Shown here: in pieces, positions 1,403-24,769 of the stretch
Position numbering within the stretch: the first letter of the stretch is position 1
Layout of the letters: every line of letters starts with the position of its first letter
Virus record (IMG/VR): IMGVR_UViG_3300019082_000012
Span: 1 to 24,769 of that record
Reading direction: 5' to 3' (one strand)
From: a virus
DNA length: 24,769 nucleotides
Translations under genes and position numbers: made by a program
Notes under the pieces: model-generated
The model's input: only the letters and a program-made list of their open reading frames with translations
The model's database searches: none
Told to the model about the DNA's origin: nothing

Positions 1403-1783
1403 TTAGCTCGCCTCTTTGAGGCGCTTCTGCGGCGGCAGGATCTCGCCTTCGGGCAACGCGGCCTGGTAGAGCAGTTCCCCACGCCGTTTCTGCAGCTGCT
1501 CCCATCCGGCCTGTGCCACGTCGGGATCCGCTCCGACGAGGTCGAGCAGGACCTTGAAGATGGCGAGATCGAACGGAGCGGTTCTCGATGGCTCTTTTTC
1601 GACGCCGGCAACGCGATAGGCGCACTGCGGGCAGAGAAAAAGCCGCTCCGATTTCGAGGTGCGGCGCTTCCCCATCCCAAGCGTCTGGGCAAAGCAGGTG
1701 AGGGCGACCGCCTTTTCGGCGGGTTGGATCTCGCGCAGGCAGCGCGAGGAACAGCAGATCTGTAATTGGCGTGGACGGCCCAT
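1403..1783 (-). CDS. Leftward Cys-rich moron protein (zinc-ribbon-like), unknown function
   Basis: A 126-aa protein on the strand opposite to the surrounding tail genes. I take the ATG at 1783 because AGGAG lies about 9 bases upstream; the open frame continues upstream to 1888 but without such a signal. The N-terminus MGRPRQLQICCSSRC gives clustered cysteines, and CPQC follows near residue 54, so a zinc-binding fold is plausible. A basic linker (MGKRRTSKSER) separates the two clusters. The C-terminus is predicted helical and charged. An isolated leftward gene with its own signals inside a late operon is the signature of a moron, often expressed in the lysogen. The palindrome pair just upstream (1802-1838) supports separate regulation. 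It could be a small DNA- or RNA-binding regulator; the sequence does not prove that. Confidence 0.6.
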   Translation of the reverse strand: MGRPRQLQICCSSRCLREIQPAEKAVALTCFAQTLGMGKRRTSKSERLFLCPQCAYRVAGVEKEPSRTAPFDLAIFKVLLDLVGADPDVAQAGWEQLQKRRGELLYQAALPEGEILPPQKRLKEAS

Positions 1784-1801: not shown

Positions 1802-1815
1802 GTTTGTTAACAAAC
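1802..1815. promoter_or_regulatory. Perfect palindrome GTTTGTTAACAAAC (operator candidate, site 1)
   Basis: A 14-bp perfect dyad lies 19 bp upstream of the leftward start at 1783. The same 14 bases recur once more in the window at 19381-19394, and both copies are followed by TA. On the leftward strand TGTTAA inside it could act as a -10 element, with TTGTTA of the neighbouring site as a -35 at 17-bp spacing. Both elements are weak, so the promoter reading is tentative; the palindrome itself is certain. Confidence 0.65.
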
Positions 1816-1823
1816 TAGCACGG

Positions 1824-1838
1824 CTTTGGTAACAAACT
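1824..1838. promoter_or_regulatory. Imperfect copy of the palindrome (operator candidate, site 2)
   Basis: CTTTGGTAACAAACT matches the perfect site and its flanks (GTTTGTTAACAAACT) at 13 of 15 positions. It lies 22 bp away centre to centre, about two helical turns. Paired dyads at that spacing are typical of cooperative repressor binding in temperate phages. Confidence 0.5.
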
Positions 1839-3369: not shown

Positions 3370-3933
3370 GTGGAAACCACTTTTCATCTCGAAGGCCTTC
3401 CCGAGTTCGCGCAGAAGCTCGACTCGATCGCGACGGTTGTCTCCGGCCCGATCGCCAGACACGGCCTTGAAGCCGGCGGCGAAGTGATCGCCGACCAGGC
3501 GCGCGCGAACGTTCACAGGCTTACCGGACTGCTCGCCGGCGACGTCGTTGTCGTTGTGCGTGTGCACCAGGAAGCTGGCGAGAGCTATGCGCTGATCGGC
3601 CCGGGCTGGGATCCGGAAGCGTTTCGCCGGACGAAGCAGCGCCGCGGCCGCTGGGCAAACGAAGCGCCGGCGCCGGACCAGACAACGAATCCCGGCCTCT
3701 ATGGCAAGTTCCTCGAAACCGGACACCGCGAGCCCGAGCATGGCCTCGCACACAATCTCGAATACCAGAGGGCGCGGCGCGCGGCTCATGGCCGGATCAA
3801 CACGGCCGAGTTTGGAACGCTGGCCACGCCGCCCTATCCCTGGCTCGGCCCAGCGCTCGATGCACGCGGCGAGCAGGCACTCGAAGTCTGCGCCGAAACC
3901 ATGCGCGGAGATCTTGAAGGATTGAATTTGTGA
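3370..3933 (+). CDS. HK97 gp10-like tail completion / minor tail protein
   Basis: A 187-aa product starting at GTG 3370. The N-terminus (FHLEGLPEFAQKLDSIA, then a helix with GGEVIADQARANVHRLTGLLAGDVVV) and the later block YGKFLETGHREPEH followed by TPPYPWLGPALDARGEQAL match the layout of the HK97 gp10-like family. Those proteins have an N-terminal helical part, a central YxxFxExG motif and a C-terminal P-x-PWLxPA segment. Family members act at the head-tail interface or in tail completion. Here the gene lies after the chaperone, not before the tube genes, so its order is shuffled relative to HK97. Its stop overlaps the next start (GTGA). Confidence 0.7.
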   Translation: METTFHLEGLPEFAQKLDSIATVVSGPIARHGLEAGGEVIADQARANVHRLTGLLAGDVVVVVRVHQEAGESYALIGPGWDPEAFRRTKQRRGRWANEAPAPDQTTNPGLYGKFLETGHREPEHGLAHNLEYQRARRAAHGRINTAEFGTLATPPYPWLGPALDARGEQALEVCAETMRGDLEGLNL

Positions 3934-4247
3934 TCATGCCGCCCCTATCGGACGACGTAGCGATCAAACACCTTCGCGGGAATACGGCCTTCGAAGCCTT
4001 GCGGGATCTGCTCGGCGACGACATGAAGGCCCTTACGGCCTTCGAAGCCTTGCGGGATCTGCTCGGCGACGACATGAAGGCCCTTACGGCCATGCACGAG
4101 GAACATATTTTCGTGAACAACTGCGACGTGCCACTTCCGTTCGGCAAGGAATTCGCCGCTCGGGTTCGCGGCTACTTGGTTTCACTCAATCTGGAGTGGA
4201 ACCAGAAGAACCTGCAGGACGCGGTCTCGGCTTCTCTGACTGACTAA
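3930..4247 (+). CDS. Small phage protein with an internal 17-residue duplication
   Basis: A 105-aa product if GTG 3930 is used (overlapping the previous TGA); ATG 3936 is the alternative. It contains two identical copies of TAFEALRDLLGDDMKAL, encoded by a perfect 51-bp tandem repeat. The unit is a short amphipathic helix rich in Leu and Asp. The C-terminal half (VPLPFGKEFAARVRGYLVSLNLEWNQ) looks globular. No family is recognised. It directly precedes the tape measure (3-bp gap), a common place for a small tail-assembly factor; that role is inferred. Confidence 0.55.
   Translation: MIMPPLSDDVAIKHLRGNTAFEALRDLLGDDMKALTAFEALRDLLGDDMKALTAMHEEHIFVNNCDVPLPFGKEFAARVRGYLVSLNLEWNQKNLQDAVSASLTD
3983..4084 (+). 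repeat. Perfect 51-bp tandem duplication (2 copies)
   Basis: Copies at 3983-4033 and 4034-4084 are identical, and the first bases of a third copy (TACGGCC) follow at 4085. The period is a multiple of three, so the duplication is in frame. Absence of any difference, even at third positions, points to a recent event or an assembly artefact. Confidence 0.9.
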
Positions 4248-15989: not shown

Positions 15990-17054
15990 ATGCGAGGAAC
16001 GGGGACGCTCTACCGGCAGCGGGGAAGCCGCTTCTGGTGGATGCAATATTTCGACCACGGGCAACGCTTTCGCGAATCCACGGCGCGCGAGCGCTACAAA
16101 GACGCCCAGGACGTCCTCAAGAATAAACTCCTCACGATCGGCGACGGTCCCTCCATGCAATCCCCGCGCCTCACCGTCGCCGGGCTCTATGCGGCCATTG
16201 AACGCGACTACGCGACGAATGGCCGCAAGAGCCTTCATCACCTGCAGGGCCTCTGGAAAAATCACCTAGAGAACTTTTTCGGCGCGATCGCGGCCGCGGA
16301 TCTCAAAAGCTCGCAGATCTCCGAGTACATCGGGCAGCGCCGCGCCGCCGGCACCGCCAACGCTTCGATCAATCGCGAGCTCGCCGCGCTGAAGCGCATG
16401 TTTAAGCTCGCCGTCAAAGAGAGTCGCCTGAAGGCTTCTCCCTACATCGGGCTCCTCGAGGAGCGCAACGTGCGGAAAGGTTTTCTGCGCGACGCGCAGT
16501 ACGATGCCCTGGCGCGCGAGACGGCGAAGGCTGGGCTGTGGCTGCGGGCGATGTTTGAAGTCGCCTACACTTTCGGCTGGCGCAAAAGCGAGCTCACCGA
16601 GATGCGCGTGAACCAACTGGATCTCGTCGAAGGCACGATCGAGCTGAACCCTGGGGAAACCAAAAACGACGAAGGGCGCCTGGTGCTGATGACGGCGCGG
16701 ATCCGCGCCTTACTCACGGAGTGTATTACCGGCAAGGAAGGTTCGGACCTGGTCTTCACCCGGGCCGACGGCAAGCCGGCGGGAAACTTCCGCCGCGCCT
16801 GGGCGCGCGCGTGCAGTGATGCTGGCGTCCCCGGGTTGCTGTTCCACGACCTTCGCCGCACCGCGGCTCGGAACATGCGGCGAGCCGGAATCCCAGAGAA
16901 GGTCGCGATGCGGATATTGGGGCAGCGCACCAGGTCTGTTTTCGAACGCTATAACATCGTGGACGCCGCCGATCTTAAACTGGCCGTGGCTGCGCTGGAG
17001 CGCCCCGCTGTGGCAGCGCTGGGAGCCGAGCCAGGGCAAGAGGCCACGCTTTAA
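15990..17054 (+). CDS. int: Tyrosine recombinase / phage integrase
   Basis: A 354-aa integrase taken from ATG 15990, where the family-like MRGTGTLYRQRGSRFWWMQY arm-binding start begins; the frame is open 69 bp upstream but overlaps the terminator. A SAM-like core-binding domain covers residues about 55-150 (LKSSQISEYIGQRRAAGTAN, then a helix with LAALKRMFKLAV). The catalytic domain shows Arg198 (GWRKSEL), His286 and Arg289 (HDLRRTAARN) and the nucleophile Tyr321 (SVFERYNI). The second histidine of the usual GHxT motif is Gln312 here (LGQRTRS), a non-standard residue at a position that is normally His or Trp. It should catalyse site-specific integration and excision between attP and attB. Confidence 0.9.
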   Translation: MRGTGTLYRQRGSRFWWMQYFDHGQRFRESTARERYKDAQDVLKNKLLTIGDGPSMQSPRLTVAGLYAAIERDYATNGRKSLHHLQGLWKNHLENFFGAIAAADLKSSQISEYIGQRRAAGTANASINRELAALKRMFKLAVKESRLKASPYIGLLEERNVRKGFLRDAQYDALARETAKAGLWLRAMFEVAYTFGWRKSELTEMRVNQLDLVEGTIELNPGETKNDEGRLVLMTARIRALLTECITGKEGSDLVFTRADGKPAGNFRRAWARACSDAGVPGLLFHDLRRTAARNMRRAGIPEKVAMRILGQRTRSVFERYNIVDAADLKLAVAALERPAVAALGAEPGQEATL

Positions 17055-17069
17055 CGAACCCTTCCCAGA

Positions 17070-17115
17070 GGCCCGAAAAGCCGCCGTTTTTCGCCTCCGC
17101 GGAGGCCTTCGGGCA
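17070..17115. terminator. Nested inverted repeats downstream of int
   Basis: GCCCGAA (17071-17077) pairs with TTCGGGC (17108-17114) and encloses the perfect 14-bp palindrome GCCTCCGCGGAGGC (17093-17106). A five-T run precedes the inner palindrome, not the outer end, so it is not a textbook rho-independent terminator. It may end int transcription or be part of the attachment region. Confidence 0.4.
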
Positions 17116-17163
17116 GCCATAGAAGCGGCAGAGACCAGCCATTTACGCGGGAAAACTGCGGGG

Positions 17164-17189
17164 TGACTGTGATTGTTAATCAGATGTCA
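17164..17189. other. AT-rich imperfect dyad, candidate attP core
   Basis: TGAC-N2-TGATT-GTT-AATCA-N3-GTCA forms an imperfect dyad of two 4- and 5-bp arm pairs around a 3-bp centre, about 110 bp after the integrase stop. It is a local AT-rich island in GC-rich DNA. Short imperfect inverted repeats around a central overlap next to int are typical of crossover cores. No second copy is available in the window, so this is a guess from structure and place. Confidence 0.3.
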
Positions 17190-17222
17190 CGGGCGAGCCG
17201 CCGTCCCATTTTCCGGCCCCTC

Positions 17223-17624
17223 TTACCAGGACCCGACAATCTTCCAGTGCTCGCGGAACTCCTTGTGGTCGACTGGGCGCACATACCTGATCCAGACGTC
17301 CGGCTGGCTGCTGGCCTCAGAGCAGTCCTGGCACGATTTTTTTACCGCCATCTCTGCATCGTACTCGCCGGGAGCCAGGATGTTGCATCCGCTGTGGTTT
17401 TCGTAGCACTTCAGCAGCGCATGTTCGCCGTTGATGATGGCGTTGGTCATGGTCGCCTTCACCGTCGTGTATTCGCCTTTGAAGATGAAACCGCCTTCTA
17501 CATGTTTTTGGAATCCGTGACTCTGTTCGGCGATCGTAATCTTCAAAGAGGTGAGGTTCTTCTTCGCCGCAGCCAGTGGAGGGATAACAGAGAGCGTGAG
17601 AAATAGAATGAGGGTTGTTTTCAT
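17223..17624 (-). CDS. Secreted Cys-containing protein (moron)
   Basis: A 133-aa product from ATG 17624 with GAGG about 12 bases upstream. The N-terminus MKTTLILFLTLSVIPPLAAA is a clear Sec signal peptide with cleavage expected after Ala-Ala-Ala near residue 20. The mature part is about 113 aa, beta-rich, with four cysteines (LLKCYENHSGC, then SCQDC) that could form disulfides outside the cytoplasm. It has a promoter nearly identical to that of the leftward membrane-protein gene at 6743-6973. An exported phage-encoded protein with its own promoter beside the integrase fits lysogenic conversion or modification of the host envelope. The family is not recognised. Confidence 0.65.
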   Translation of the reverse strand: MKTTLILFLTLSVIPPLAAAKKNLTSLKITIAEQSHGFQKHVEGGFIFKGEYTTVKATMTNAIINGEHALLKCYENHSGCNILAPGEYDAEMAVKKSCQDCSEASSQPDVWIRYVRPVDHKEFREHWKIVGSW

Positions 17625-17647
17625 GGAGTCAGTCCTCGGGACTCCAT
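17623..17647. promoter_or_regulatory. Inverted repeat overlapping the transcription start
   Basis: ATGGAGTC (17623-17630) and GACTCCAT (17640-17647) are perfect 8-bp arms around a 9-bp centre. They span the predicted transcription start (about 17641) and the start codon of the leftward secreted-protein gene. It could be an operator or, if the transcript starts slightly upstream, a hairpin that masks the ribosome site. Confidence 0.5.
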
Positions 17648-17676
17648 GTAGTACCGCGCTTGCCGCGGAAAGTCAA
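17648..17676 (-). promoter_or_regulatory. Leftward moron promoter with a dyad in the spacer (copy 2)
   Basis: On the minus strand, TTGACT (17671-17676) and TACTAC (17648-17653) are separated by 17 bp. The spacer has CCGCG-N5-CGCGG (17654-17668). It matches the promoter at 6984-7012 at 24 of 29 positions although the genes served are unrelated, which marks a shared regulon. Confidence 0.72.
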
Positions 17677-17695
17677 GGGTTTGGGATCATGGTGC

Positions 17696-18529
17696 ATGGC
17701 CCCCATGGCCCCCAAACTCCTCAAACCCGATCAGTTGGCGGGAATAGAGGAAAAGCTAAAACGGGCCGACGAGAATATCCTCAATCTCGGCGTCGAGATC
17801 AACGCTTTCGTCAAGGACAGCCCCGACACGGGTGCTGCTGAGCCCAAGGGAAATAAGACTCAGCAGTGGGTTAACTTCCACAAAGATCGAGTCATCCCTC
17901 CGCGATTCGGCACGCTTGCGGGCGAGATCGTTCACCATTGGAGTTCCTGCTTCGATCACATCGCATGGGGTCTCTCCAGTGATAAGTACAGGAGAAAGCA
18001 TCCGACTCTGATTGCTTTTCCGATTCTGGTCAGACCTCCGAATGAAAGAGGACAGGCCCGTTACGACGGAAACATAGAGGGGATCGCCAACAGCACCGCA
18101 CGTAGACTCATCGAAGATTTGCAGCCACACAAGAGTGCGAATCCTGCTGACGAACCACTTGCCATCATCCATGAGTTGGACCGTGTGGACAAGCACCACA
18201 CGCTCGTCCTGGTTGTCCCGAGCTTCGACGCACAGCTCGTCATTCCCCGGAGATTTGTCCTCGGGAGAGTTATCGGCGCTTTTGTACCCAATGAGGATGC
18301 GTTTCCCGCCGAGCCTACAGACAGTGGCAAGCTCCAGATTTCCAGACAGGTAGCGTTCGCGGAGTTTGGTCAGCGGAAAAACCAAGCGGTTGTTCCATCG
18401 CTCACGCATCTCTCGCACGAAGTCAGAAACATATGTCAAGGGATAATTACCTCTGCGATTGTACGTCAGAAGCTCACCGTGACTCGTCGGCCGAACGTGG
18501 CGCAGACTTCGCAAAAGCGCAGCCAGTAA
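17696..18529 (+). CDS. Rightward 277-aa protein of unknown function (moron or cargo)
   Basis: ATG 17696 or 17705 is the likely start; the frame is open further upstream through the promoter of the leftward gene. Residues about 10-40 form a charged helix (LAGIEEKLKRADENILNLGV). The core has PPRFGTLAGEIVHHWSSCFDHIAWGLSS and then LIEDLQPHKSANPADEP followed by IHELDRVDKHHTLVLV. The order G-E-I-H-x3-S-x2-DH-x-AW, then LQP and DKHH recalls a widespread unnamed protein family of scattered distribution. The conserved His, Asp and Lys are suggestive, but no catalytic role is known to me. GC looks lower than in the tail genes, which fits recent acquisition. It overlaps the methyltransferase gene convergently by 64 bp, so its C-terminal end may be ragged. 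Confidence 0.6.
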   Translation: MAPMAPKLLKPDQLAGIEEKLKRADENILNLGVEINAFVKDSPDTGAAEPKGNKTQQWVNFHKDRVIPPRFGTLAGEIVHHWSSCFDHIAWGLSSDKYRRKHPTLIAFPILVRPPNERGQARYDGNIEGIANSTARRLIEDLQPHKSANPADEPLAIIHELDRVDKHHTLVLVVPSFDAQLVIPRRFVLGRVIGAFVPNEDAFPAEPTDSGKLQISRQVAFAEFGQRKNQAVVPSLTHLSHEVRNICQGIITSAIVRQKLTVTRRPNVAQTSQKRSQ

Positions 18530-18984
18530 GCCATCTCTCGATCGATGCCGATCGCGCGCCGGCCGACCTTCATTGCGGCCAGCAGCGTAGTGCCACAGCC
18601 AGCGTACGGATCGAGCACAACACGGTCCTGACACAGGGCACAAGGCCTTCTGGTCATCGCCACCAGCTTGGCCATTTCGTCGACCGGCCGCTGGTTCGGG
18701 TGCGCGGCCGTTCGTTGCGGCGCGAGTTGGGGCAGAAAATGCTTCTCTCCGCGCCAGATGTAGCCGTTCTCTGGATTGGTGAGCACGAGTGCATCAAACT
18801 CGACCAGGCCGAGCCGCTTCAGCATCTCGTTGCACTGCTCGGCGGTTCTGATCGTGTAGGGCGGATCGGTGATGACCACGTAGTCGTCATCGGGCAGCCG
18901 CGGAGTCACGTCACCGCAGTCGCCAAGGCAGAAGGCGATCTGTGGGGCGAAGAGATCTTGCAGGTTTTGGCGACCGATTTTCAC
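18466..18984 (-). CDS. Compact DNA methyltransferase (N4-cytosine or N6-adenine type)
   Basis: A 172-aa product from GTG 18984, overlapping the HU stop (GTGA), so the two are translationally coupled. Motif IV is TDPPY at residues 39-43. HPNQRP (95-100), in place of the common HPTQKP, and DPYAGCGTT (125-133, the AdoMet-binding FxGxGTT motif I) followed by GRRAIGID come after it. The order IV then I is that of beta-class amino-methyltransferases. It is much shorter than most orphan enzymes, with little room for a target recognition domain between the motifs. It probably methylates phage or host DNA against restriction or as a regulatory mark. Its target sequence cannot be told, and there is no partner nuclease. 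Confidence 0.82.
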   Translation of the reverse strand: MKIGRQNLQDLFAPQIAFCLGDCGDVTPRLPDDDYVVITDPPYTIRTAEQCNEMLKRLGLVEFDALVLTNPENGYIWRGEKHFLPQLAPQRTAAHPNQRPVDEMAKLVAMTRRPCALCQDRVVLDPYAGCGTTLLAAMKVGRRAIGIDREMAYWLRFCEVCATFGRRVTVSF

Positions 18985-19265
18985 GAGCGCGATCGGTTCA
19001 CCAGTTTTTTCAGCTCGGCGCCGGCTTTGAACTTCACCACCTTCGCGGCGGGGATCGTGAGCGTTCTTCCGGTCTGCGGATTGCGGCCCTTGCGGCTACT
19101 GCGATGCGCGACGGAAAACGTCCCGAGGCCGATCAGCATCACTCGGCCACCTCCGCGCAGGGTTTTCGAGACCGATTGGATCATTGAGTCGATCGCGGCG
19201 CTGGCCTGGGCGTGAGAGAGATTGCCGTCGGCAGCGACGCGGCTTGCCAGATCTGTTTTGTTCAT
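18981..19265 (-). CDS. HU/IHF-family DNA-binding protein
   Basis: A 94-aa protein with the whole HU fold in order: MNKTDLASRVAADGNLSHAQ (helix-turn-helix dimerisation part), AIDSMIQSVSKTLRGGGRV, GLGTFSVAHRSSRKGRNPQTG (beta arm with the conserved GRNPxTG tip), then IPAAKVVKFKAGAELKKLVN. Length is normal. AGGAGG lies about 11 bases before ATG 19265. HU bends DNA without sequence preference and helps integration, replication and packaging. Here it is the first gene of a leftward two-gene operon with the methyltransferase. Its promoter lies at 19289-19316 and carries the box shared with the early promoter. Confidence 0.92.
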   Translation of the reverse strand: MNKTDLASRVAADGNLSHAQASAAIDSMIQSVSKTLRGGGRVMLIGLGTFSVAHRSSRKGRNPQTGRTLTIPAAKVVKFKAGAELKKLVNRSRS

Positions 19266-19288
19266 AGGGTCGAGTTCCTCCTGACGCC

Positions 19289-19316
19289 ATCTTCAACGGC
19301 CGCCGCTGAGAGTCAA
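19289..19316 (-). promoter_or_regulatory. Promoter of the HU-methyltransferase operon
   Basis: On the minus strand, TTGACT (19311-19316) and GAAGAT (19289-19294) are separated by 16 bp; the -10 is weak. Immediately upstream of the -35 lies TTTTCGC (19317-19323), giving TTTTCGCTTGAC, the same 12 bases as at the rightward early promoter. The predicted start, about 19282, is at the AGGAGG ribosome site. Confidence 0.6.
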
Positions 19317-19380
19317 GCGAAAAACGCGGCAGCCGCAGTGACAGAGCCGTTCTCGACACCGCGACGAGGGCTAGACGCGA

Positions 19381-19394
19381 GTTTGTTAACAAAC
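19381..19394. promoter_or_regulatory. Perfect palindrome GTTTGTTAACAAAC (second copy in the window)
   Basis: Identical over 14 bp, plus the following TA, to the site at 1802-1815, about 17.6 kb away. It lies 116 bp upstream of the HU start. A GCGAAAA half-site follows at 19404-19410. It is likely bound by the same regulator as the sites at 1802-1838. Confidence 0.65.
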
Positions 19395-19573
19395 TAAATA
19401 CGGGCGAAAACGCGCGCCGATCTCAGAGGCTACGGGTCTCAGTCTTTGTCGCGGATACTCACTGCGGGTTCTCGGTTTTTTCTTGCTCTCCTGCTCTCTT
19501 TTCCGCGCCCGCGCTGCCCGTCTCGCGCGCAAATGTTGGGACGACGAATTGCTTCGCCGCTCCTCAGGCGAGG

Positions 19574-19740
19574 TTTCTCGCTGTCTCGCTGTCTTGCTTT
19601 TCGGAAATAGGCGCGCGTTTTTGGCGCGCCTCCGAGTCGGTTTCTTGTTCGTTGCCCCCTCTTCGCTTTCTCGCTCTATCCTAGGTTTCTCGCTTTCTCT
19701 GGTTTCTCGCTCTCTCTTCGCTTTTTCGCTTTCTCGGGGG
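19574..19740 (+). repeat. Pyrimidine-rich tract with TTTCTCGCT repeats
   Basis: Exact TTTCTCGCT lies at 19574-19582, 19667-19675, 19686-19694 and 19703-19711. Close variants are at 19582-19590 (TGTCTCGCT) and 19722-19730 (TTTTTCGCT). Between the copies the strand is dominated by C and T. Repeated short direct motifs in a strand-asymmetric non-coding tract can be iterons of a replication origin, a regulator array or an early RNA leader. Confidence 0.6.
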
Positions 19741-19754
19741 TCTGCTCTGCACGA

Positions 19755-19777
19755 ATTTTCGCCTTTTCTGCGAAAAT
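19755..19777. promoter_or_regulatory. Inverted repeat ATTTTCGC-N7-GCGAAAAT
   Basis: Perfect 8-bp arms around a 7-bp centre. They share the GCGAAAA/TTTTCGC half-site with the dyad at 19862-19878 and the HU promoter. Operator candidate. Confidence 0.6.
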
Positions 19778-19861
19778 CGGGACCAGATTAGTAACAAGGG
19801 GGGGGGCGAAGGCCAATGTTTACACCGTTTCGAGTGTTGGAGATGGCCTGGATTTGCACAG

Positions 19862-19878
19862 GCGAAAAAACTTTTCGC
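19862..19878. promoter_or_regulatory. Inverted repeat GCGAAAA-AAC-TTTTCGC at the early promoter
   Basis: A perfect 7-bp dyad with a 3-bp centre, ending exactly at the base before the -35 hexamer TTGACA (19879-19884). A protein bound here would contact or block RNA polymerase. Confidence 0.65.
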
Positions 19879-19907
19879 TTGACAGGGTAACCCGGATTAC
19901 ATTACGG
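19879..19907 (+). promoter_or_regulatory. Putative rightward early promoter
   Basis: Consensus -35 TTGACA (19879-19884) with ATTACG (19901-19906, 16-bp spacer) or TTACGG (17-bp spacer) as a weak -10. The start would be near 19913, two to three bases before ATG 19916, so the first message may be nearly leaderless. The weak -10 suggests dependence on an activator. Confidence 0.55.
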
Positions 19908-19915
19908 TTCCCGGC

Positions 19916-20239
19916 ATGGACCAACTTTGCGAGTGCGGCTGCGGACAGAAATTTGAACCGAAGTTCCCATGGCAACGCTTCTACTCGCGGCGCTGTAAGA
20001 CTCGCGCGGCTGTGCGCCGACTCAGGGCGCGACGATCCGGCCATTCCTCCCCGCCCAGCGGCGGAGGCCCCGGCGGCGGCCTGCACGTCGCCTACATGGG
20101 CGAAGGGCTGAGCATCACGCGAGAGGACCGGTTACCTGTTATCAGACATAAGAAGCCGGCCAAATCGGCTCCCGCCCCTCTCCCGATGTTCCCTGAAAAT
20201 CCAAGCGCCGGAGGCAGCCGTGACCCAATCGCTGACTAA
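19916..20239 (+). CDS. First early gene: small Cys-rich basic protein (zinc-finger-like)
   Basis: A 107-aa product from ATG 19916, the first gene after the putative early promoter. The N-terminus MDQLCECGCGQKF, followed by FYSRRCKTRAAVRRLRARR, gives Cys residues in a C-x-C-x-C...C arrangement with a strongly basic helix. It resembles short zinc-binding proteins that recur in phage early regions and recalls the CGCGxxF...FCSxxCR fingers. The rest (residues 45-107) is Pro/Gly-rich and probably disordered. Nucleic-acid binding is inferred. No ribosome site is visible, which agrees with a nearly leaderless message. It overlaps the next small gene by 20 bp. Confidence 0.6.
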   Translation: MDQLCECGCGQKFEPKFPWQRFYSRRCKTRAAVRRLRARRSGHSSPPSGGGPGGGLHVAYMGEGLSITREDRLPVIRHKKPAKSAPAPLPMFPENPSAGGSRDPIAD

Positions 20240-20375
20240 GTCGACACGATGGTCGCAGAAGCAGCGCCGATCGCGGCGATGCACATCCTGTGGCAAACCT
20301 TCGGAAGAATTCAGCCTGTGCCCGTCCCACCGCATCGAGCAGACGCAGCGGATGAGGCAACGGAGGGCCGCATGA
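20220..20375 (+). CDS. Tiny zinc-ribbon protein (51 aa)
   Basis: GTG 20220 opens a 51-residue frame that ends at TGA 20373-20375 and overlaps the end of the previous gene by 20 bp. Its core is CTSCGKPSEEFSLCPSH, a C-x2-C...C-x2-H zinc-ribbon pattern, framed by basic ends (QKQRRSRR and QRMRQRRAA). The motif makes it more than a chance frame despite its size. The role is unknown; small zinc ribbons of this sort are frequent in early regions of phages and could bind DNA, RNA or a host protein. Confidence 0.5.
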   Translation: MTQSLTKSTRWSQKQRRSRRCTSCGKPSEEFSLCPSHRIEQTQRMRQRRAA

Positions 20376-20423
20376 TCCGCTCGCTGCTTAAGGCCCTCTT
20401 GACCCCGGTGCTACAAGCGCTGC

Positions 20424-20753
20424 ATGGCGAGCGCTTCGGTTTCGAAGTTCGTCCAGCGAATTCTTTCCCGGTTGGAACGTGCCGAGGGGCACGAACCCAA
20501 TCCCAGCCTGCAGGCCGACTACCGCATCGCCTGGATCACCGTGCTTCGCGCATCGAGAGGCGACCCCCTTCCCAGCGTGAGCGCGTCCTACGCAGTTCTC
20601 GGCCTGCACCCTACCAAAGTCTGGCCAGCGGTCCTGGCGCGCCGCAAAGCGCTGCTCGGGCCACTCTACGAAGCGTTCTACGGGGCAAGCTGGCCACCCA
20701 AGAAACCGGCGCAAGCGGAGCGCGATCCGCGCCCGGCGGAGCGCACCGCGTGA
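20424..20753 (+). CDS. Early-region protein, unknown function
   Basis: A 109-aa product from ATG 20424; no good ribosome site is visible. The frame is closed by a stop 24 bp upstream, so no earlier start in this frame is likely. Residues 5-85 appear helical and globular (SKFVQRILSRLERAEGHEPN, ADYRIAWITVLRAS, VWPAVLARRKALLGPLYEAF); the C-terminus is Pro/Arg/Glu-rich. I do not recognise it. A competing frame from ATG 20372 gives a Pro/Arg-rich peptide and is less convincing. A hairpin follows at 20776-20798. Confidence 0.5.
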   Translation: MASASVSKFVQRILSRLERAEGHEPNPSLQADYRIAWITVLRASRGDPLPSVSASYAVLGLHPTKVWPAVLARRKALLGPLYEAFYGASWPPKKPAQAERDPRPAERTA

Positions 20754-20775
20754 GAGCGTCTCCCTAAAAAGCAAA

Positions 20776-20798
20776 CGGCGCGGTTCGTGGCCGCGCCG
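20776..20798 (+). terminator. GC-rich hairpin between early genes
   Basis: CGGCGCGG (20776-20783) pairs perfectly with CCGCGCCG (20791-20798) across a 7-nt loop. No T run follows (the next bases are CCCAATTTC), so it may be an attenuator or processing site rather than a full terminator. Confidence 0.4.
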
Positions 20799-20834
20799 CC
20801 CAATTTCACCGACACCACCCCGGAGAGAACCTAG

Positions 20835-21173
20835 GTGCCATCGATAGCCGTAGCATCCCACAATCCGACGCCCGCGCCAAGAGAAAATTTGCTCCCTGTT
20901 TTGAGCGAGTTGCGCCGGGACCACTCGCGGCATGTGGAAAACTTCCCCGCGCCTTCTCTCCGGAAAACCGGCAAGGTCAAATGGCACGCCACGAAGAAAA
21001 ACTTCACCTACGTCACCATGGCCGACGGCCAGGACGTGTTCCTGCACCAAGATGACTTCGACGGCGACTGGCCTCCGCCCTACCACAAAAGCGTCGAATT
21101 CGATCTGCTCGAAAATAACCATCCCCGCTGCAAGTTCAGGGCGAAGGAAGCAAGGCTGCTGGGGGCGCGATGA
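20835..21173 (+). CDS. Cold-shock-domain-like small protein
   Basis: A 112-aa product from GTG 20835 with GAGAGAAC upstream. Residues about 45-110 follow the cold-shock pattern: KTGKVKWHATKKNFTYVTMA, then DGQDVFLHQDDFDGDWPP, VEFDLLENN and AKEARLL at the end. In bacterial CspA the first nucleic-acid motif is KGFGFI; here it is KNFTYVTM, so one aromatic is kept and the motif has drifted. DVFLH matches the second motif (VFVH). The N-terminal 44 residues are an extra, Pro-rich extension. It probably binds single-stranded DNA or RNA and may act as a chaperone or antiterminator during early infection; that role is inference. It overlaps the next gene by 4 bp (ATGA). Confidence 0.65.
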   Translation: MPSIAVASHNPTPAPRENLLPVLSELRRDHSRHVENFPAPSLRKTGKVKWHATKKNFTYVTMADGQDVFLHQDDFDGDWPPPYHKSVEFDLLENNHPRCKFRAKEARLLGAR

Positions 21174-21667
21174 CCGAACAACTCAAACTCGCGGTGAAGG
21201 TTGCGCGCTCGCTCGGGATGCCAGAGACGTGGGCCAACCTGCGGACGATTGAAATCGCGCTGATCTGCGAGACGGCCTTCAGTTCGATTTCGCTACAGGA
21301 AGCGTCGGAGTTGATCGTCGCCTGCGCTAAGAATTTTCGCGTGGGGCCGAACGACTACCGGATGATCCGCTACCTCCCCATCAACCGCTTTTGGTTCGAG
21401 GATTCCATCTGGCGCTACACGTTCGACTATGCGACGTGGAAAGCAGACCGCCCGGACGAAGTGGCGCGGAGAGCAGCTGAAAACCGGCGCGAGGAAGCGA
21501 TCCGCGCGGCGATTGTGGGCCGGTGCACGGGCTGCCAGCGCCCCCGATTCCAAAGCGACAAGTGGATTGATTTTTGTTGCGACGGTTGCCGCGAAGACTA
21601 CGAGGGCCGCGTAGCTCGCCGGGATCGGATCGTGAAAGAGCATCGGCAATTGGAGGCAACCGCATGA
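21170..21667 (+). CDS. Early protein with a C-terminal zinc-binding motif, unknown function
   Basis: A 165-aa product coupled to the cold-shock-like gene (ATGA overlap) and, by the same overlap type, to the next gene. The N-terminal 100 residues are helical with a conserved-looking block (WANLRTIEIALICETAFSSI, then MIRYLPINRFWFEDSIWRY). The C-terminus has CTGCQRPRFQSDKWIDFCC with DGCREDYEG, a C-x2-C...C-C-x2-C ribbon. Such a protein could be a DNA-binding replication or regulatory factor. The family is not recognised. Confidence 0.65.
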   Translation: MTEQLKLAVKVARSLGMPETWANLRTIEIALICETAFSSISLQEASELIVACAKNFRVGPNDYRMIRYLPINRFWFEDSIWRYTFDYATWKADRPDEVARRAAENRREEAIRAAIVGRCTGCQRPRFQSDKWIDFCCDGCREDYEGRVARRDRIVKEHRQLEATA

Positions 21668-21927
21668 CCGTAAGATTCGACGCCGCATTCCTCGATCGCC
21701 GCATGTCGGAGCACCAGCGCTGGCAGCACGATGTGCTGAAGGAGCTGCTCGACGAAGTGTTGAACGAAATGGCGGAAGTGATCCAGGCGCCGGCGTTCGC
21801 GAAGCGGGCGAAGGCCCAGAGCTTGCCTTTTCCTGAGCCTCGCGGGCCCGTGCGGAGGCAGCGGTATGCAGAAAAAGACGGCACGGAATTTTCAAGTCCT
21901 CGCGCCGTCACTCGTGCAGTTCGGTAG
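21664..21927 (+). CDS. Early small protein, unknown function
   Basis: An 87-aa product from ATG 21664, overlapping the previous stop by 4 bp. Residues 1-45 form a charged helix with heptad-like spacing (RRMSEHQRWQHDVLKELLDE, then VLNEMAEVIQA), so a coiled coil or oligomerisation helix is likely. The C-terminal half is basic and Pro-rich. A 91-bp gap separates it from the next gene. I do not recognise it. Confidence 0.55.
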   Translation: MTVRFDAAFLDRRMSEHQRWQHDVLKELLDEVLNEMAEVIQAPAFAKRAKAQSLPFPEPRGPVRRQRYAEKDGTEFSSPRAVTRAVR

Positions 21928-22018
21928 CGAGGGAGACCCTCCAGGCCGCCTCGCTTTTTGTAGCTTACATCGATTCAAGCTTCGCTGCACCAAGGCGAAT
22001 GAGAAAGGGGAGCCGCCG

Positions 22019-22312
22019 ATGGCAATGACGCAAGGATTTTTCGAGTACGTCGGAGACATCGCTCCGCTCGAAACGCAGGTCCAGTTCATGCGGATCTGCG
22101 AGAAGTGCCAGTCGGAACAGATCTTCATCGCCGGCTGGGAATGTGACGCCGGCTTAGTGGGCTACTGCATCGGTTGCGGCGATGAGCGGATCGCGCCCTT
22201 CACACGCAGCAGCACAGGTTTTGCCACGGACATGAAGGGGGCAGCGGACGCGGAAGCTGCCTCCGGATTACGACCCGGGGCGAGAGGACGGCGCCGGGAA
22301 AAGGAACGGTAA
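22019..22312 (+). CDS. Early zinc-ribbon-like protein, unknown function
   Basis: A 97-aa product from ATG 22019 with GGGGAG just upstream; the open frame to 21866 overlaps the preceding gene and lacks a site. It contains ICEKCQSEQ and, about 25 residues later, YCIGCGDE, a C-x2-C...C-x2-C zinc ribbon in a beta-rich context (IFIAGWECDAGLVGY). The C-terminus is basic (RPGARGRRREKER). Neighbouring genes carry similar Cys pairs, so it belongs to the same early group. The function is unknown. Confidence 0.6.
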   Translation: MAMTQGFFEYVGDIAPLETQVQFMRICEKCQSEQIFIAGWECDAGLVGYCIGCGDERIAPFTRSSTGFATDMKGAADAEAASGLRPGARGRRREKER

Positions 22313-22389
22313 CTACTTCTGACAGGCGCAGGGGATCGCCCCGCAACTTAAACGCATTCGTGCTCAACGTTTCACCAGAGGACCCTCCA

Positions 22390-22605
22390 ATGAACGCTTT
22401 GCTAGATCACGACTTTGAAACCGGCCGTCGTCGTCGCCGGCTCTCTTTTTCACAAGCACTCAGGTTTCTCCCATTGAGCTGGGGGAAAAAGCGGCGCTTT
22501 GAAAAGCGTCGCGCTGCGGCACGAGCAGCGAAGGCGGGAGCGGTCCCCAAACCCGCTCCCGCTGCCATCATGCCATGGACAGCGCAGGGAGTTCGCCGTG
22601 TGTGA
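22390..22605 (+). CDS. Early basic protein, unknown function
   Basis: A 71-aa product from ATG 22390 with AGAGGA about 10 bases upstream. It is extremely rich in Arg and Lys (GRRRRRLSFSQALRFLPLSW, then KKRRFEKRRAAARAAKAG). Composition suggests a nucleic-acid- or membrane-binding peptide rather than an enzyme. No family is recognised. A GGGG-ATCG-CCCC hairpin lies in the gap before it. Confidence 0.45.
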   Translation: MNALLDHDFETGRRRRRLSFSQALRFLPLSWGKKRRFEKRRAAARAAKAGAVPKPAPAAIMPWTAQGVRRV

Positions 22606-22622
22606 GCGGAAGGAGCAATCAA

Positions 22623-22820
22623 ATGTCTGAACACTTCACGCGCAGCACGATCTCCGCGGCTTTCTGGTGCAGCAAGTGCCAGGGCCACACGCAACACCGC
22701 ATCGATGACGGCCGCAAAGGGCCGTGCCTCGACTGCATTGCCAAGCTGGAACGCGAGCACATCGCGAACCCAAAGCCGATCCCGGCGGCACAACGCTCGC
22801 TGTGGGGAGAGGTTTTCTGA
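22623..22820 (+). CDS. Small zinc-finger phage protein
   Basis: A 65-aa product from ATG 22623 with AAGGAG about 10 bases upstream. FWCSKCQGHTQHRIDDGRKG and then PCLDCIAKLE give C-x2-C-x14-C-x2-C, a treble-clef or ribbon-type site. Standalone proteins with W-C-x2-C-x3-T-x-H and a second Cys pair are common in phage genomes, without known role. The last base of its stop is the first of the next start (TGATG). Confidence 0.65.
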   Translation: MSEHFTRSTISAAFWCSKCQGHTQHRIDDGRKGPCLDCIAKLEREHIANPKPIPAAQRSLWGEVF

Positions 22821-23017
22821 TGGGCACCTATCCCACGAAGCCCATCGAACGCGGCGACTATGTGCGTCTCCGCGCCTTACCGGCCGACTGCGAACCGACG
22901 CCGATCCTGGTCACCCTGGTGCTCACAAGCGGGATGATTCGCCTGCTCGATCGCAGCGGGTACTACGCGGCGCATCTGTTCGTGGTGGTCGATCCGCCAC
23001 AGGAGAAAAGCGCATGA
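22820..23017 (+). CDS. Early small beta-rich protein, unknown function
   Basis: A 65-aa product starting at ATG 22820 on the stop of the zinc-finger gene, so its translation is coupled to it. Alternating hydrophobics (GDYVRLRALPADCEPTPIL, then VTLVLTSGMIRLLDRSGYYA) suggest a small beta-barrel such as an SH3-like or OB-like fold. It ends in the next start (ATGA). No family is recognised. Confidence 0.55.
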   Translation: MGTYPTKPIERGDYVRLRALPADCEPTPILVTLVLTSGMIRLLDRSGYYAAHLFVVVDPPQEKSA

Positions 23018-23217
23018 GCAACCACGAGCAGGAATATTTCGACGCGCTGAGACAGATCGCTCGCGAGTTTCATCCCTCCGAATGGTTTGAAGCGAACGCG
23101 GGAAAAGCTTACGGAGTTTCGCCGCACGAAGCGCTGGAGATGGCTTACGACAACATCCAATTTTGCGCCGCGAGCGCGATTCGAAGAAGGCGACGTCCAA
23201 AAAAGGGGGGCGCATGA
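23014..23217 (+). CDS. Early small protein, unknown function
   Basis: A 67-aa product from ATG 23014, coupled on both sides by 4-bp overlaps, with AGGAG about 10 bases upstream. It is helical (NHEQEYFDALRQIAREFH, then VSPHEALEMAYDNIQ) with a very basic C-terminus (RRRRRPKKGG). Such an acidic-then-basic layout suits a small adaptor protein. Not recognised. Confidence 0.55.
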   Translation: MSNHEQEYFDALRQIAREFHPSEWFEANAGKAYGVSPHEALEMAYDNIQFCAASAIRRRRRPKKGGA

Positions 23218-23459
23218 AGTGCAAATTCTGCGGCTGCACTGACAAGAATCCGTGCGCGATACCTATCTGCGAAGGCCCGAACCTTGAGCCGATGCTCGCC
23301 ACGGAAAGCAACATTGCGGTCGGCGTGATGGCCTGCGGCTGGCTGCTCGATGAGCCGGGCAACGCTGTATGCACTGCCCCGGCCTGCGTCGACAAAGCCT
23401 ACGCCGAAGCCGAGCTCCTGGCTGACCAACTTCACTTTTTCATCGGGAGGACCGCATGA
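23214..23459 (+). CDS. Small Cys-rich phage protein (MKCKFCGC type)
   Basis: An 81-aa product from ATG 23214 with a strong AAAGGGGGG site. It starts MKCKFCGCTDKNPC, a dense Cys cluster (C-x2-C-x-C-x5-C), and has a later Cys pair in CTAPAC. The opening resembles a frequent short phage protein with a C-x2-C-G-C-T/S signature followed by W or F. A metal site is near certain by composition, its role unknown. It overlaps the next gene by 4 bp. Confidence 0.6.
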   Translation: MKCKFCGCTDKNPCAIPICEGPNLEPMLATESNIAVGVMACGWLLDEPGNAVCTAPACVDKAYAEAELLADQLHFFIGRTA

Positions 23460-23764
23460 CCGCTCTAGAAACTGTTTCGAATCTTCGCGCCGAGGGCGCG
23501 ACCGAGGCCATCGAAATCTTCCTGTTCCTCGCCAACCACGCGCACGAGCTGCGCACCGCCGACGGCCAGAGGATGAACGACGCCACCGACTTCACCGCGT
23601 TCCTGCGCGAATTCGCCGAAGCGCTCGCGCCAGCAAAGCCCCCGAAGCTTGCTTGTCACGATACCTGCCCACGCTGCGGCCACATTCACCAGGGCGAAGA
23701 GGAGTGCGGAATGTTCATGGGCGCGAGCGCGGGATTTTGCCGTTGCGAAGTGCAGGCCGCGTGA
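23456..23764 (+). CDS. Early protein with a C-terminal Cys-rich motif
   Basis: A 102-aa product from ATG 23456. Residues 1-60 are helical and acidic (ATEAIEIFLFLANHAHELRT, then DFTAFLREFAEALAP). Residues about 67-100 hold CHDTCPRCGHIHQGEEECGM and a final FCRCEV, which gives a probable zinc cluster. The helical N-terminal part plus ribbon suggests a protein-protein adaptor. The family is not recognised. Confidence 0.55.
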   Translation: MTALETVSNLRAEGATEAIEIFLFLANHAHELRTADGQRMNDATDFTAFLREFAEALAPAKPPKLACHDTCPRCGHIHQGEEECGMFMGASAGFCRCEVQAA

Positions 23765-23779
23765 AGTGAGGAGGTTCGC

Positions 23780-23983
23780 ATGACCGAACTGCTCAAGCTC
23801 CGCGAAGAAATGCTGGCGATGGCCGCGGCGCGCCCGCGAATGCGCTGCAGCACGCTTTGGCTGCTCGTTGTGCTCGGGATCGCGCTGTGTGGCCATCCCT
23901 GGACCGGCGCCTGGTTCGCCCTGCCTTGGCTAGTTCATCGGCGCTGGGAGATTACTCTCGACAGAGAAAGGCCTGTTCGATGA
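23780..23983 (+). CDS. Small membrane protein, early region
   Basis: A 67-aa product from ATG 23780 with GAGGAGG about 9 bases upstream. A charged amphipathic N-terminus (TELLKLREEMLAMAAARP) is followed by one long or two short membrane segments at residues about 25-51 (LWLLVVLGIALCGHP and GAWFALPWLV). It ends in a charged tail. Small early membrane proteins of phages often affect host membrane potential or exclude superinfecting phages; this is only analogy. It overlaps the next gene by 4 bp. Confidence 0.55.
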   Translation: MTELLKLREEMLAMAAARPRMRCSTLWLLVVLGIALCGHPWTGAWFALPWLVHRRWEITLDRERPVR

Positions 23984-24504
23984 AGCCGCCGTGTGCTAAA
24001 CATTTTGAATGGACGTTTTCCAGTCGAGTGCGCGAGCGGAAGTGCTCGAACTGCCCAGTGAGCACGACTGGCTATCTGACGCTCAGCAGCGGAGTGCGTA
24101 AGCCGTTGTGTTCTGCCTGTTTTCTCGTTTCTGCGAAGACTGCGGCTCTGGATGTGGGCCGCAGTTCTAAAATCACAACCGGAGTCCACCAAATGAAAAA
24201 CCCTATCTATCGCCAGGGAGACGTCCTGATTCGGCGCATCAAGAGCCTGCCGACGCAAAAGGCTCAAACGCGGCTGACCGGGATCCTTGCCTATGGTGAA
24301 GTCACCGGGCATGCCCATCGCCTCGAAGACCTGGCGCGTGCCGAAGTCCTCGAAGTTGGCAAAGGATTATTCCTTCGCGTGGGCGCTGAAGGAGTCCGCA
24401 TCGTCCATGAAGAGCACGCTCCAGTGAGCCTGCCGGCTGGAGATTACGAAATCGAAATTCAGCGCGAGTACACGCCGGCGGAGATCCGCAATGTCGCTGA
24501 CTGA
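23980..24504 (+). CDS. Fusion of a Cys-pair domain with a phage GEVTGHAHR-type domain
   Basis: One frame of 174 codons from ATG 23980. Residues 1-71 hold KCSNC and LCSAC, a probable zinc site, and a linker. From Met72 the sequence is MKNPIYRQGDVLIRRIKSLP, then ILAYGEVTGHAHRL, IVHEEHAPVSLPAGDYEIEI and QREYTP. That is a well-known standalone phage protein of about 100 aa with conserved GEVTGHAHR and HEEH motifs. An internal ATG at 24193 has CGGAG upstream, so the domain could also be made alone. The two halves may be an in-frame fusion or two genes joined by loss of a stop. The function of the His-rich domain is unknown. Confidence 0.6.
   Translation: MKPPCAKHFEWTFSSRVRERKCSNCPVSTTGYLTLSSGVRKPLCSACFLVSAKTAALDVGRSSKITTGVHQMKNPIYRQGDVLIRRIKSLPTQKAQTRLTGILAYGEVTGHAHRLEDLARAEVLEVGKGLFLRVGAEGVRIVHEEHAPVSLPAGDYEIEIQREYTPAEIRNVAD
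24193..24504 (+). CDS. Alternative internal start: standalone GEVTGHAHR domain
   Basis: ATG 24193 is preceded by ACCGGAG at about -10, a proper ribosome site, and begins where related phage proteins begin. It would give a 103-aa product in the same frame as the longer fusion. Both forms may be translated. This entry records the alternative start, not a separate locus. Confidence 0.55.
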   Translation: MKNPIYRQGDVLIRRIKSLPTQKAQTRLTGILAYGEVTGHAHRLEDLARAEVLEVGKGLFLRVGAEGVRIVHEEHAPVSLPAGDYEIEIQREYTPAEIRNVAD

Positions 24505-24769
24505 GGTCACGCTCCTCGATCAGTTCACCGAGGCCTGCAATTATCCAGGGATCATCGACCCGGACGGAGTGGAGCGGGCACTGCGAAAATATGTTTCAGC
24601 GCTCGGCGTAGATCGCAAGATCGAACAGCTTAAAGAGGGATGGAGCATCTACGATCACCCCTCGCTTTTGAAAACCATATCGGAGATCGTTGATCGTGTC
24701 GCACGCGCCGCACTCGACGCACTCGACGCACGCGCCGCACGCGACGCACTCGACGCACTCGACGCACGC
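24491..24769 (+). CDS. Early gene with an Ala-Leu-Asp-Arg repeat tail, cut by the window end
   Basis: Starts at ATG 24491 (overlapping the previous gene by 14 bp) and is still open at the last base, so the C-terminus is missing. Residues 1-70 are globular (LLDQFTEACNYPGIIDPDGV, then ERALRKYVSALGVDRK). From residue about 71 it turns into repeats of ARAALDALDARAARDALDAL type. Such Ala/Asp/Arg helical repeats occur in several uncultured phages. The role is unknown; a long charged helix or spacer is likely. Confidence 0.6.
   Translation, partial: MSLTEVTLLDQFTEACNYPGIIDPDGVERALRKYVSALGVDRKIEQLKEGWSIYDHPSLLKTISEIVDRVARAALDALDARAARDALDALDAR
24698..24769 (+). repeat. Codon-level repeat of GCACTCGAC units
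   Basis: The end of the window is built from 9-bp units close to GCACTCGAC or GCACGC, in frame, which yields alternating Ala, Leu or Arg, and Asp. The unit is incomplete at the edge. Such arrays expand and contract easily, so the length may vary between isolates. Confidence 0.75.

Follow-up and report, generated by a model that had tools for sequence, protein, structure and literature searches.

What does the intergenic region between divergent genes of an uncultivated tailed phage control, and through which elements? The question is raised by 650 bp (positions 19266-19915) of viral record IMGVR_UViG_3300019082_000012, of which we analysed a stretch of 24,769 nt, called the window below. A previous reading made from the letters alone (the sequence-only reading) had seen here a dense array of the heptamer GCGAAAA and its complement, running at both ends into the -35 elements of divergent promoters, and had proposed a switch in which one protein acts on both operons. 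We compared the region with its counterparts in related phages and with other loci of the same genome.

The phage and its relatives

A longer record, IMGVR_UViG_3300037843_000337 (41,257 bp; G001), covers the whole window with 4 differences, and the phage genes include a tyrosine integrase, terminase subunits, a tail protein and an endolysin. Plasmid matches of the integrase all fall below 60% identity. The nearest relative, IMGVR_UViG_3300035696_000121 (39,331 bp; G002), aligns across much of the genome; the control regions of the two agree at 73.8% in alignment, and the ends of the G002 record overlap by 100 bp within this region. Elsewhere in the window, the open reading frame listing gives a predicted protein with an adjacent duplication, TAFEALRDLLGDDMKAL being present twice (3930-4247), and from 24491 onward (G001 32850-34127) a predicted 425-aa protein carries a long ALDALDARDAR-type repeat.

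Wider relatives were collected in two ways. Alignment of a 109-aa early protein (A1) gave 21 viral loci, 19 of them with a recognisable first gene; L127 and L138, in which no first gene was recognised, were kept out of all promoter counts. The same protein found no match by tblastn of the phage collection. A scan with the stem-loop pattern TTGCTTYGCCGC-N4-ACAGGCRRG returned 9 stretches, 6 of them in further contigs, L157, L160 and L161 being already in the set. The near-duplicates L119, L129, L130 and L133 are left out of the 21-locus DnaA-box count and included in the 25-locus promoter count, and L133 alone is omitted from the count of repeated 7-mers. Features of the window are collected in Table 1.

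Table 1. Elements and genes of the early control region and of the p126 locus, in window coordinates
Feature	Position	Strand	Remarks
p126, Cys4 protein	1403-1783	-	no PHROG match, sub-threshold Pfam match; preceded by tandem palindromes
Tandem candidate p126 operators	1802-1837		GTTTGTTAACAAAC at 1802-1815, imperfect CTTTGGTAACAAAC at 1824-1837
N6/N4 DNA methyltransferase-like protein, 172 aa	18466-18984	-	same cassette as HU
HU-family DNA-binding protein, 94 aa	18981-19265	-	cassette not in G002
TTTTCGCTTGAC box, putative -35 of the leftward HU gene	19312-19323	-	lies left of the part well aligned with G002
16-bp perfect palindrome AGTTTGTTAACAAACT	19380-19395		candidate p126 operator; 16/16 identical in G002
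GCGAAAA site	19404-19410	+	8 bp beyond the 16-bp palindrome; kept in G002
300-bp stretch with the highest pyrimidine content in the 41-kb record, with TTTCTCGC-type repeats	19472-19771	+	69.7% versus 50.1 +/- 3.6%
Stem-loop CTTCGCC-GCTCCTCA-GGCGAGG	19552-19573	+	in 7/19 related loci; C-G to T-A double change in two
GC-rich hairpin AGGCGCGC-GTTTTTG-GCGCGCCT	19609-19631	+	identical in G002
GCGAAAA site in pyrimidine repeat stretch	19723-19729	-	not conserved: CTTTCGC in G002
Dyad ATTTTCGC-N7-GCGAAAAT	19755-19777		kept in G002, stem there one pair longer
DnaA-like box ATTTGCACA	19852-19860	+	8/9 match to TTWTNCACA; 64 nt before ATG
Dyad GCGAAAA-AAC-TTTTCGC (GCGAAAA-N3-TTTTCGC)	19862-19878		abuts -35; left half is GCGAAGG in G002
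Early promoter TTGACA-N18-TACGGT	19879-19908	+	-10 followed by N7 and ATG
First early gene, 107 aa, zinc-finger-like	19916-20239	+	ATG 7 nt past -10; related to the zf-CGNR-like proteins of relatives

The early promoter and its first gene

The putative promoter at the right end of the region has close counterparts, TTGACA-N18-TACCGT-N9-ATG in G002 and TTGACA-N18-TACAGT-N7-ATG in a third phage, G003 (L120). For the wider set, we called a promoter when a TTGACA-like element (at least 4/6) and a TATAAT-like element (at least 3/6) were separated by 16-18 bp and followed within 7-10 nt by the ATG. By script, 18 of 25 loci have such a promoter and seven do not (L122, L131, L136, L137, L158, L159, L162), a count that was not blind: a promoter pattern had guided the choice of start in L120, L130 and L133, a TTGAC-plus-ATG filter had done so in L123, L126, L128, L129, L132 and L135, and the six stem-loop-derived contigs had their starts picked by eye. 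A strict promoter scan of both strands between 19200 and 19960 listed no promoter. A transcription start about 7 nt after the -10 would fall at the ATG, and the early transcript would thus be leaderless.

The gene that begins there encodes a member of a family of short proteins (57-141 aa in the eight that were aligned). Seven of these eight match zf-CGNR (PF11706) at E<=1, the best at 1.9e-8, whereas the window's own protein has no Pfam match at this threshold; the family also shows a weak sequence match to 3h0n. At other loci, as judged by eye, the first-gene slot is occupied by a ribbon-helix-helix-like or another small protein.

Symmetry is also present within the promoter itself. In the window, the spacer contains an imperfect dyad, GTAA-CCCGGA-TTAC (19887-19900), and perfect inverted repeats with arms of 8-9 bp lie inside the spacers of L123, L126 and L132, where they start at -32 to -30. 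By eye, GTAA follows the TTGACN hexamer by 2 nt in 7 of 11 CGNR-like loci (L118, L119, L120, L123, L126, L132, L135) and is missing at this place in L128, L129, L164 and L165.

A DnaA-like box at a set distance

The DnaA-box consensus is TTWTNCACA, and the box used by the host of this phage may differ from it. With gene starts as first set, 9 of 19 loci have an exact TTWTNCACA within 160 bp upstream, where shuffles would give 0.3. For L121, L122, L131 and L137, the start was then moved from an upstream GTG to the next in-frame ATG, which shifted the boxes of L122, L131 and L137 from -45, -46 and -58. With the moved starts, 10 of 21 non-duplicate loci (L122, L126, L131, L132, L135, L136, L137, L162, L163, L165) have an exact box whose first base falls between -66 and -62. 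The window itself has only the 8/9 match and enters the count when one mismatch is allowed (11 of 21); the background per such interval is 0.00037 for exact boxes and 0.0021 with one mismatch. Within one mismatch, the remaining 10 loci, G003 among them, have no box at -66 to -62, and L123 and L124 carry an exact one on the opposite strand, at -84 and -85. Among the six contigs that were found by a different motif, the stem-loop, three have the exact box, at -64 or -65. The loci are related and thus are not independent trials. In our view, a DnaA-type site near the early promoter is probable.

Pyrimidine tract and hairpins

Between the palindrome and the box, the region contains a pyrimidine tract and two hairpins (Table 1). 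Both hairpins are present in the 7 of 19 loci that have the first, which also occurs in the 6 further viral contigs. Two of the 13 predicted pairs show a pair-keeping double change, one per hairpin, and one or two sequences fail to form some of the predicted pairs; these changes are weak evidence for an RNA structure, and Rfam gave 0 matches at E<=5 between 19000 and 20300. The stretch from 19552 to 19631 is possibly a structured RNA or DNA element.

Could the region then be mainly the replication origin of the phage? Host DnaA would bind at the box, the pyrimidine tract and the hairpins would aid opening or priming, the repeats would be iteron-like, and the promoter would supply transcriptional activation of the origin. 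An origin would account for a DnaA-box consensus whose position is constant in roughly half of the relatives, for the position of the pyrimidine tract and for the conservation of the hairpins. In addition, a PHROG scan of early genes, the majority of them without a hit, turned up no replication protein, which suggests reliance on host initiation. However, the window holds a single near-match box rather than a cluster, the box keeps its distance to the promoter wherever it is present, and cumulative GC skew has no extreme at the region. The GCGAAAA copies are irregular in both spacing and orientation, whereas an iteron origin has regular direct repeats, which were not found here. We therefore consider it unlikely that the region serves mainly as an origin, the chief competitor of our own reading, and we read the box, the promoter and the dyads as parts of an early control region.

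The GCGAAAA array

The array described by the sequence-only reading is real. All seven GCGAAAA/TTTTCGC sites lie where they had been placed (19317, 19404, 19723, 19756, 19770, 19862, 19872), and the 650-bp region exceeds chance as claimed, dinucleotide-preserving shuffles giving a mean of 0.68 copies, a maximum of 5 and never 7 in 5000 trials. When any 7-mer may be chosen, 4 of 1000 shuffles reach a count of at least 7, so that the excess is real but milder than the figure for the chosen word. A count across the genome, which had been proposed as a check, also shows the local excess: G001 has 14 sites, 7 of them in the control region, and the whole 24.8-kb window has 13 against 8.0 +/- 2.7 in whole-window shuffles. 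Both pairs that had been called perfect dyads are indeed perfect inverted repeats (Table 1). The half-site orientation of one is opposite to that of the other, their spacers measure 7 and 3, and thus the two are not copies of one rigid operator. The 12-bp box said to be shared by the two -35 elements occurs exactly twice in the window, in the leftward box of Table 1 and at 19872-19883 (+); for the left (HU) promoter, no convincing -10 was seen by eye.

Much of the excess could be a by-product of slippage in pyrimidine-rich simple repeats (TTTCTCGCTTT) instead of a set of binding sites. Repeats of the TTTCTCGC type occupy 19571-19595 and 19664-19735, and other repeat words lead in relatives, AAAGCGA and AGCGAGA in G002 and TTCTGCT, ten times, in L132. 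Site 19723, which is not conserved, lies within such a stretch and may derive from it. However, shuffles that preserve dinucleotides do not produce seven copies, six of the seven sites lie outside the repeats (though 19756 and 19770 fall within the pyrimidine-rich 300 bp), and two pairs are perfect dyads, one of which is kept with its stem in G002. Slippage as the source of most sites is accordingly an explanation that we judge improbable, and we continue to treat the dyads as candidate operators.

How far does the array extend beyond this phage? G002 keeps four of the seven sites (19404, 19756, 19770, 19872); of the others, 19862 reads GCGAAGG, 19723 reads CTTTCGC and 19317 is without counterpart. 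Leaving out 19317, 39 of 42 GCGAAAA bases are identical in G002 against 169 of 212 in the flanks, and with it the figures are 39 of 49 against 187 of 252, a conservation difference that is modest at best. The sequence-only reading had named conservation in relatives as decisive for the array, and here it fails beyond G002. In fact, 23 other loci, three of them near-duplicates of others, are hardly enriched, with 7 copies in 13.8 kb upstream of the early gene and 63 in 193 kb elsewhere (0.51 versus 0.33 per kb). The function of GCGAAAA thus rests on two related phages. Single TTTTCGC copies stand directly upstream of the DnaA-like box in L126, L132 and L165. A scan of viral contigs for TTTTCGC-N-TTTT-NN-GCGAAAA found G001, G002 and L115.

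L115 appears to be an unrelated phage contig, in which TTTTTCGCATTTTATGCGAAAAA, a look-alike of the window dyad, stands ahead of a TTGAC promoter. Operator arrays particular to each lineage were considered but not borne out: of 18 regions ahead of the early gene, three (G001, G002, L132) contain a 7-mer repeated beyond shuffle expectation. At a comparable place, L135, L136 and L162 carry tandem dyads of the form GYGAC-N5-GTCRC (a script found 4 in L135 and 3 in L136; four were counted by eye in L162), and the repeated 7-mer count flagged neither L135 nor L136 despite them.

The leftward cassette and the proposed two-operon switch

Whether the sites serve both operons can be judged in part from G002: a search of this genome for HU, the methyltransferase and the left box gave no match to any of them. 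As seen by eye, the HU and methyltransferase cassette (~17302-19345) is swapped in G002 for an AT-rich open frame of ~139 aa, which stops just before the palindrome, the junction lying just left of it. Homologues of HU number 485 in bacterial genomes, all 80 that were kept bearing Bacteroidota-type names, and 453 records of the phage collection contain one, each below 60% identity. In a DNA comparison of the right arm (window 17001-24769, E<=0.01), L094, L098, L101, L102 and L114 gave no match, L111 one 81-bp match within the HU gene and L112 one match over the 109-aa gene.

Since G002 holds four sites without HU, methyltransferase or left box, the array can stand without the leftward operon. 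What stands of the proposal that one protein acts on both operons is the local excess and a right box that runs into the -35 with a recurring geometry; shared control through the sites is not supported, the two boxes being identical, as expected of divergent promoters with shared operators, yet the left one and its operon being missing in G002. Identical boxes and seven sites between divergent genes would suit a single phage repressor that binds GCGAAAA at both ends and represses the HU and early operons, but we hold this to be very unlikely, as the left box lies within the swapped cassette, relatives carry the early promoter without the array, and HTH_3 (PF01381) was found at E<=1 in neither G001 nor G002 (control genomes were positive in 14 of 14 cases).

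HU and the methyltransferase, neither of which is found in G002, are rejected as the GCGAAAA binder, and so is p126, the palindromes before its gene having a different sequence. We infer that the GCGAAAA dyads form an operator set around the early promoter that is private to this phage and its nearest relative.

A palindrome shared with the p126 gene

The most operator-like element of the interval, the 16-bp palindrome, had been missed by the sequence-only reading. The 14-bp core of this palindrome recurs at 1802, before the leftward p126 gene in the tail module, and it does likewise in G002 and L094. Is p126 the protein that reads it? Homologues of p126 are found in 14 further contigs, and GTTTGTTAACAAAC lies just upstream of the p126 start in the window, G002, L094, L136, L137 and L162. 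Other lineages have palindromes of their own at this place: GTTTCTTAAGAAAC in L132, GTTTATTAATAAAC in L165, ATTGGTACCAAT in L163, GTGCTAGCAC in L131, L135, L123 and L164, and AGCCGGTACCGGCT in L112. L121 has non-palindromic GTTTCCAAAAC-like repeats.

Of the 11 homologues scanned, 10 have a palindrome of at least 10 bp in the 90 bp ahead of the p126 gene, L121 having none; random stretches of the same loci equal it in 0.5-5.4% of cases for eight of them and in ~11% for L135 and L123. Most homologues carry a pair of palindromes shortly ahead of the start, separated by 10-22 bp. A tandem-pair score equalled by at most 1% of random stretches was obtained for 9 of 15 upstream regions; the score is weaker in L131 (2.3%) and L135 (4.3%) and zero in L112, L123 and L121, and G002 was left unscored.

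The palindromes are confined to p126 in the L136, L137 and L132 records (41-46 kb) and in the 11-kb fragment L094, and L131 has one further copy ~320 bp away. As palindromes elsewhere mostly stay with p126, G001 and G002 are the only ones in which an extra copy was seen within the early control region. In G003, an additional copy of that phage's own palindrome lies ~270 bp ahead of the integrase.

Protein and palindrome also appear to vary together to some degree. Within the close p126 subfamily, a G at base 5 of the half-site goes with R at residue 40 (7 homologues), a C with M (L132) and an A with Q (L165). This tracking is suggestive only: the R/G cases are related by descent, and R is also found in more distant homologues whose operators are unrelated. 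A fold search of PDB and BFVD with the AlphaFold model of p126 (mean pLDDT 78) returned nothing at E<=0.001. From the recurrence of the palindromes before its gene, p126 probably regulates its own expression, and 19380-19395 would be a second p126 operator.

A proposed compound early control region

What, then, does the region do? The parts that last are the early promoter, the probable DnaA-type site and the palindrome shared with the p126 gene. We envision that they belong to the early-operon control of an uncultivated, integrase-bearing tailed phage, a compound region that joins a leaderless promoter, a DnaA-like input, a spacer dyad, GCGAAAA operators and a p126 operator, and we place middling confidence in this model. 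At its core, transcription from a sigma70-type promoter would begin at the ATG of the small zinc-finger gene, or beside it, and yield a leaderless mRNA. An activator such as host DnaA would sit at the box ~60 bp upstream, and RNA polymerase would be blocked by a repressor on the spacer dyad, between -35 and -10. Extra operators, private to the lineage, would be provided by the GCGAAAA dyads at -160 and next to the -35, for a protein that tunes the same promoter, and p126, the Cys4 protein that probably regulates its own gene, would act on the palindrome as on a second operator. The elements, their spacing and their conservation are read directly from the compared genomes. From them we infer which protein pairs with which DNA, where transcription starts and in what direction each effect goes.

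Parts of this model have counterparts in known systems. Bacillus phage AR9 is a jumbo phage that encodes its own RNA polymerases, whereas the promoter here would be of the sigma70 type; leaderless mRNA is reportedly among the abstract terms of a paper on AR9 (PMC5312081). Autoregulated phage repressors with tandem operators are a general kind of regulator, and p126 homologues likewise mostly have two palindromes before their start; unlike such repressors, p126 is without PHROG or fold match and is a candidate DNA-binding protein. In a lambda-type CI/Cro switch, a phage helix-turn-helix repressor would be expected, in contrast to the HTH_3 result for G001 and G002. The likeness to the lambda early control/origin region lies in an early promoter with operator-like dyads. 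In one lambda report, host DnaA is described as acting on transcription at the origin, and the DnaA-box-like sites are placed downstream of pO (PMC3985674); here, the DnaA-box-like site lies upstream, at about -60, and the first gene would be leaderless. At the level of literature listings, no report of this arrangement of DnaA box, leaderless early promoter and CGNR protein in phages came up, and literal GTTTGTTAACAAAC gave no match in literature text.

A wider proposal, which we offer tentatively and regard as less likely to be right than wrong, is that this phage group has a switch without a recognised helix-turn-helix repressor. Host DnaA, bound ~60 bp upstream, would gate the leaderless promoter, the zinc-finger first product would act on the dyad in its own spacer, and p126 would represent a new family of Cys4 DNA-binding proteins that read lineage-specific tandem palindromes. 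If this is true, early expression in an uncultured phage group would be tied to the replication initiator of the host through a fixed distance between site and promoter. There would also be an undescribed family of small regulators, whose operators can be read from sequence. Thus, protein-operator pairs would become available for testing, and control regions could be found in metagenomic phages in which no repressor is recognised.
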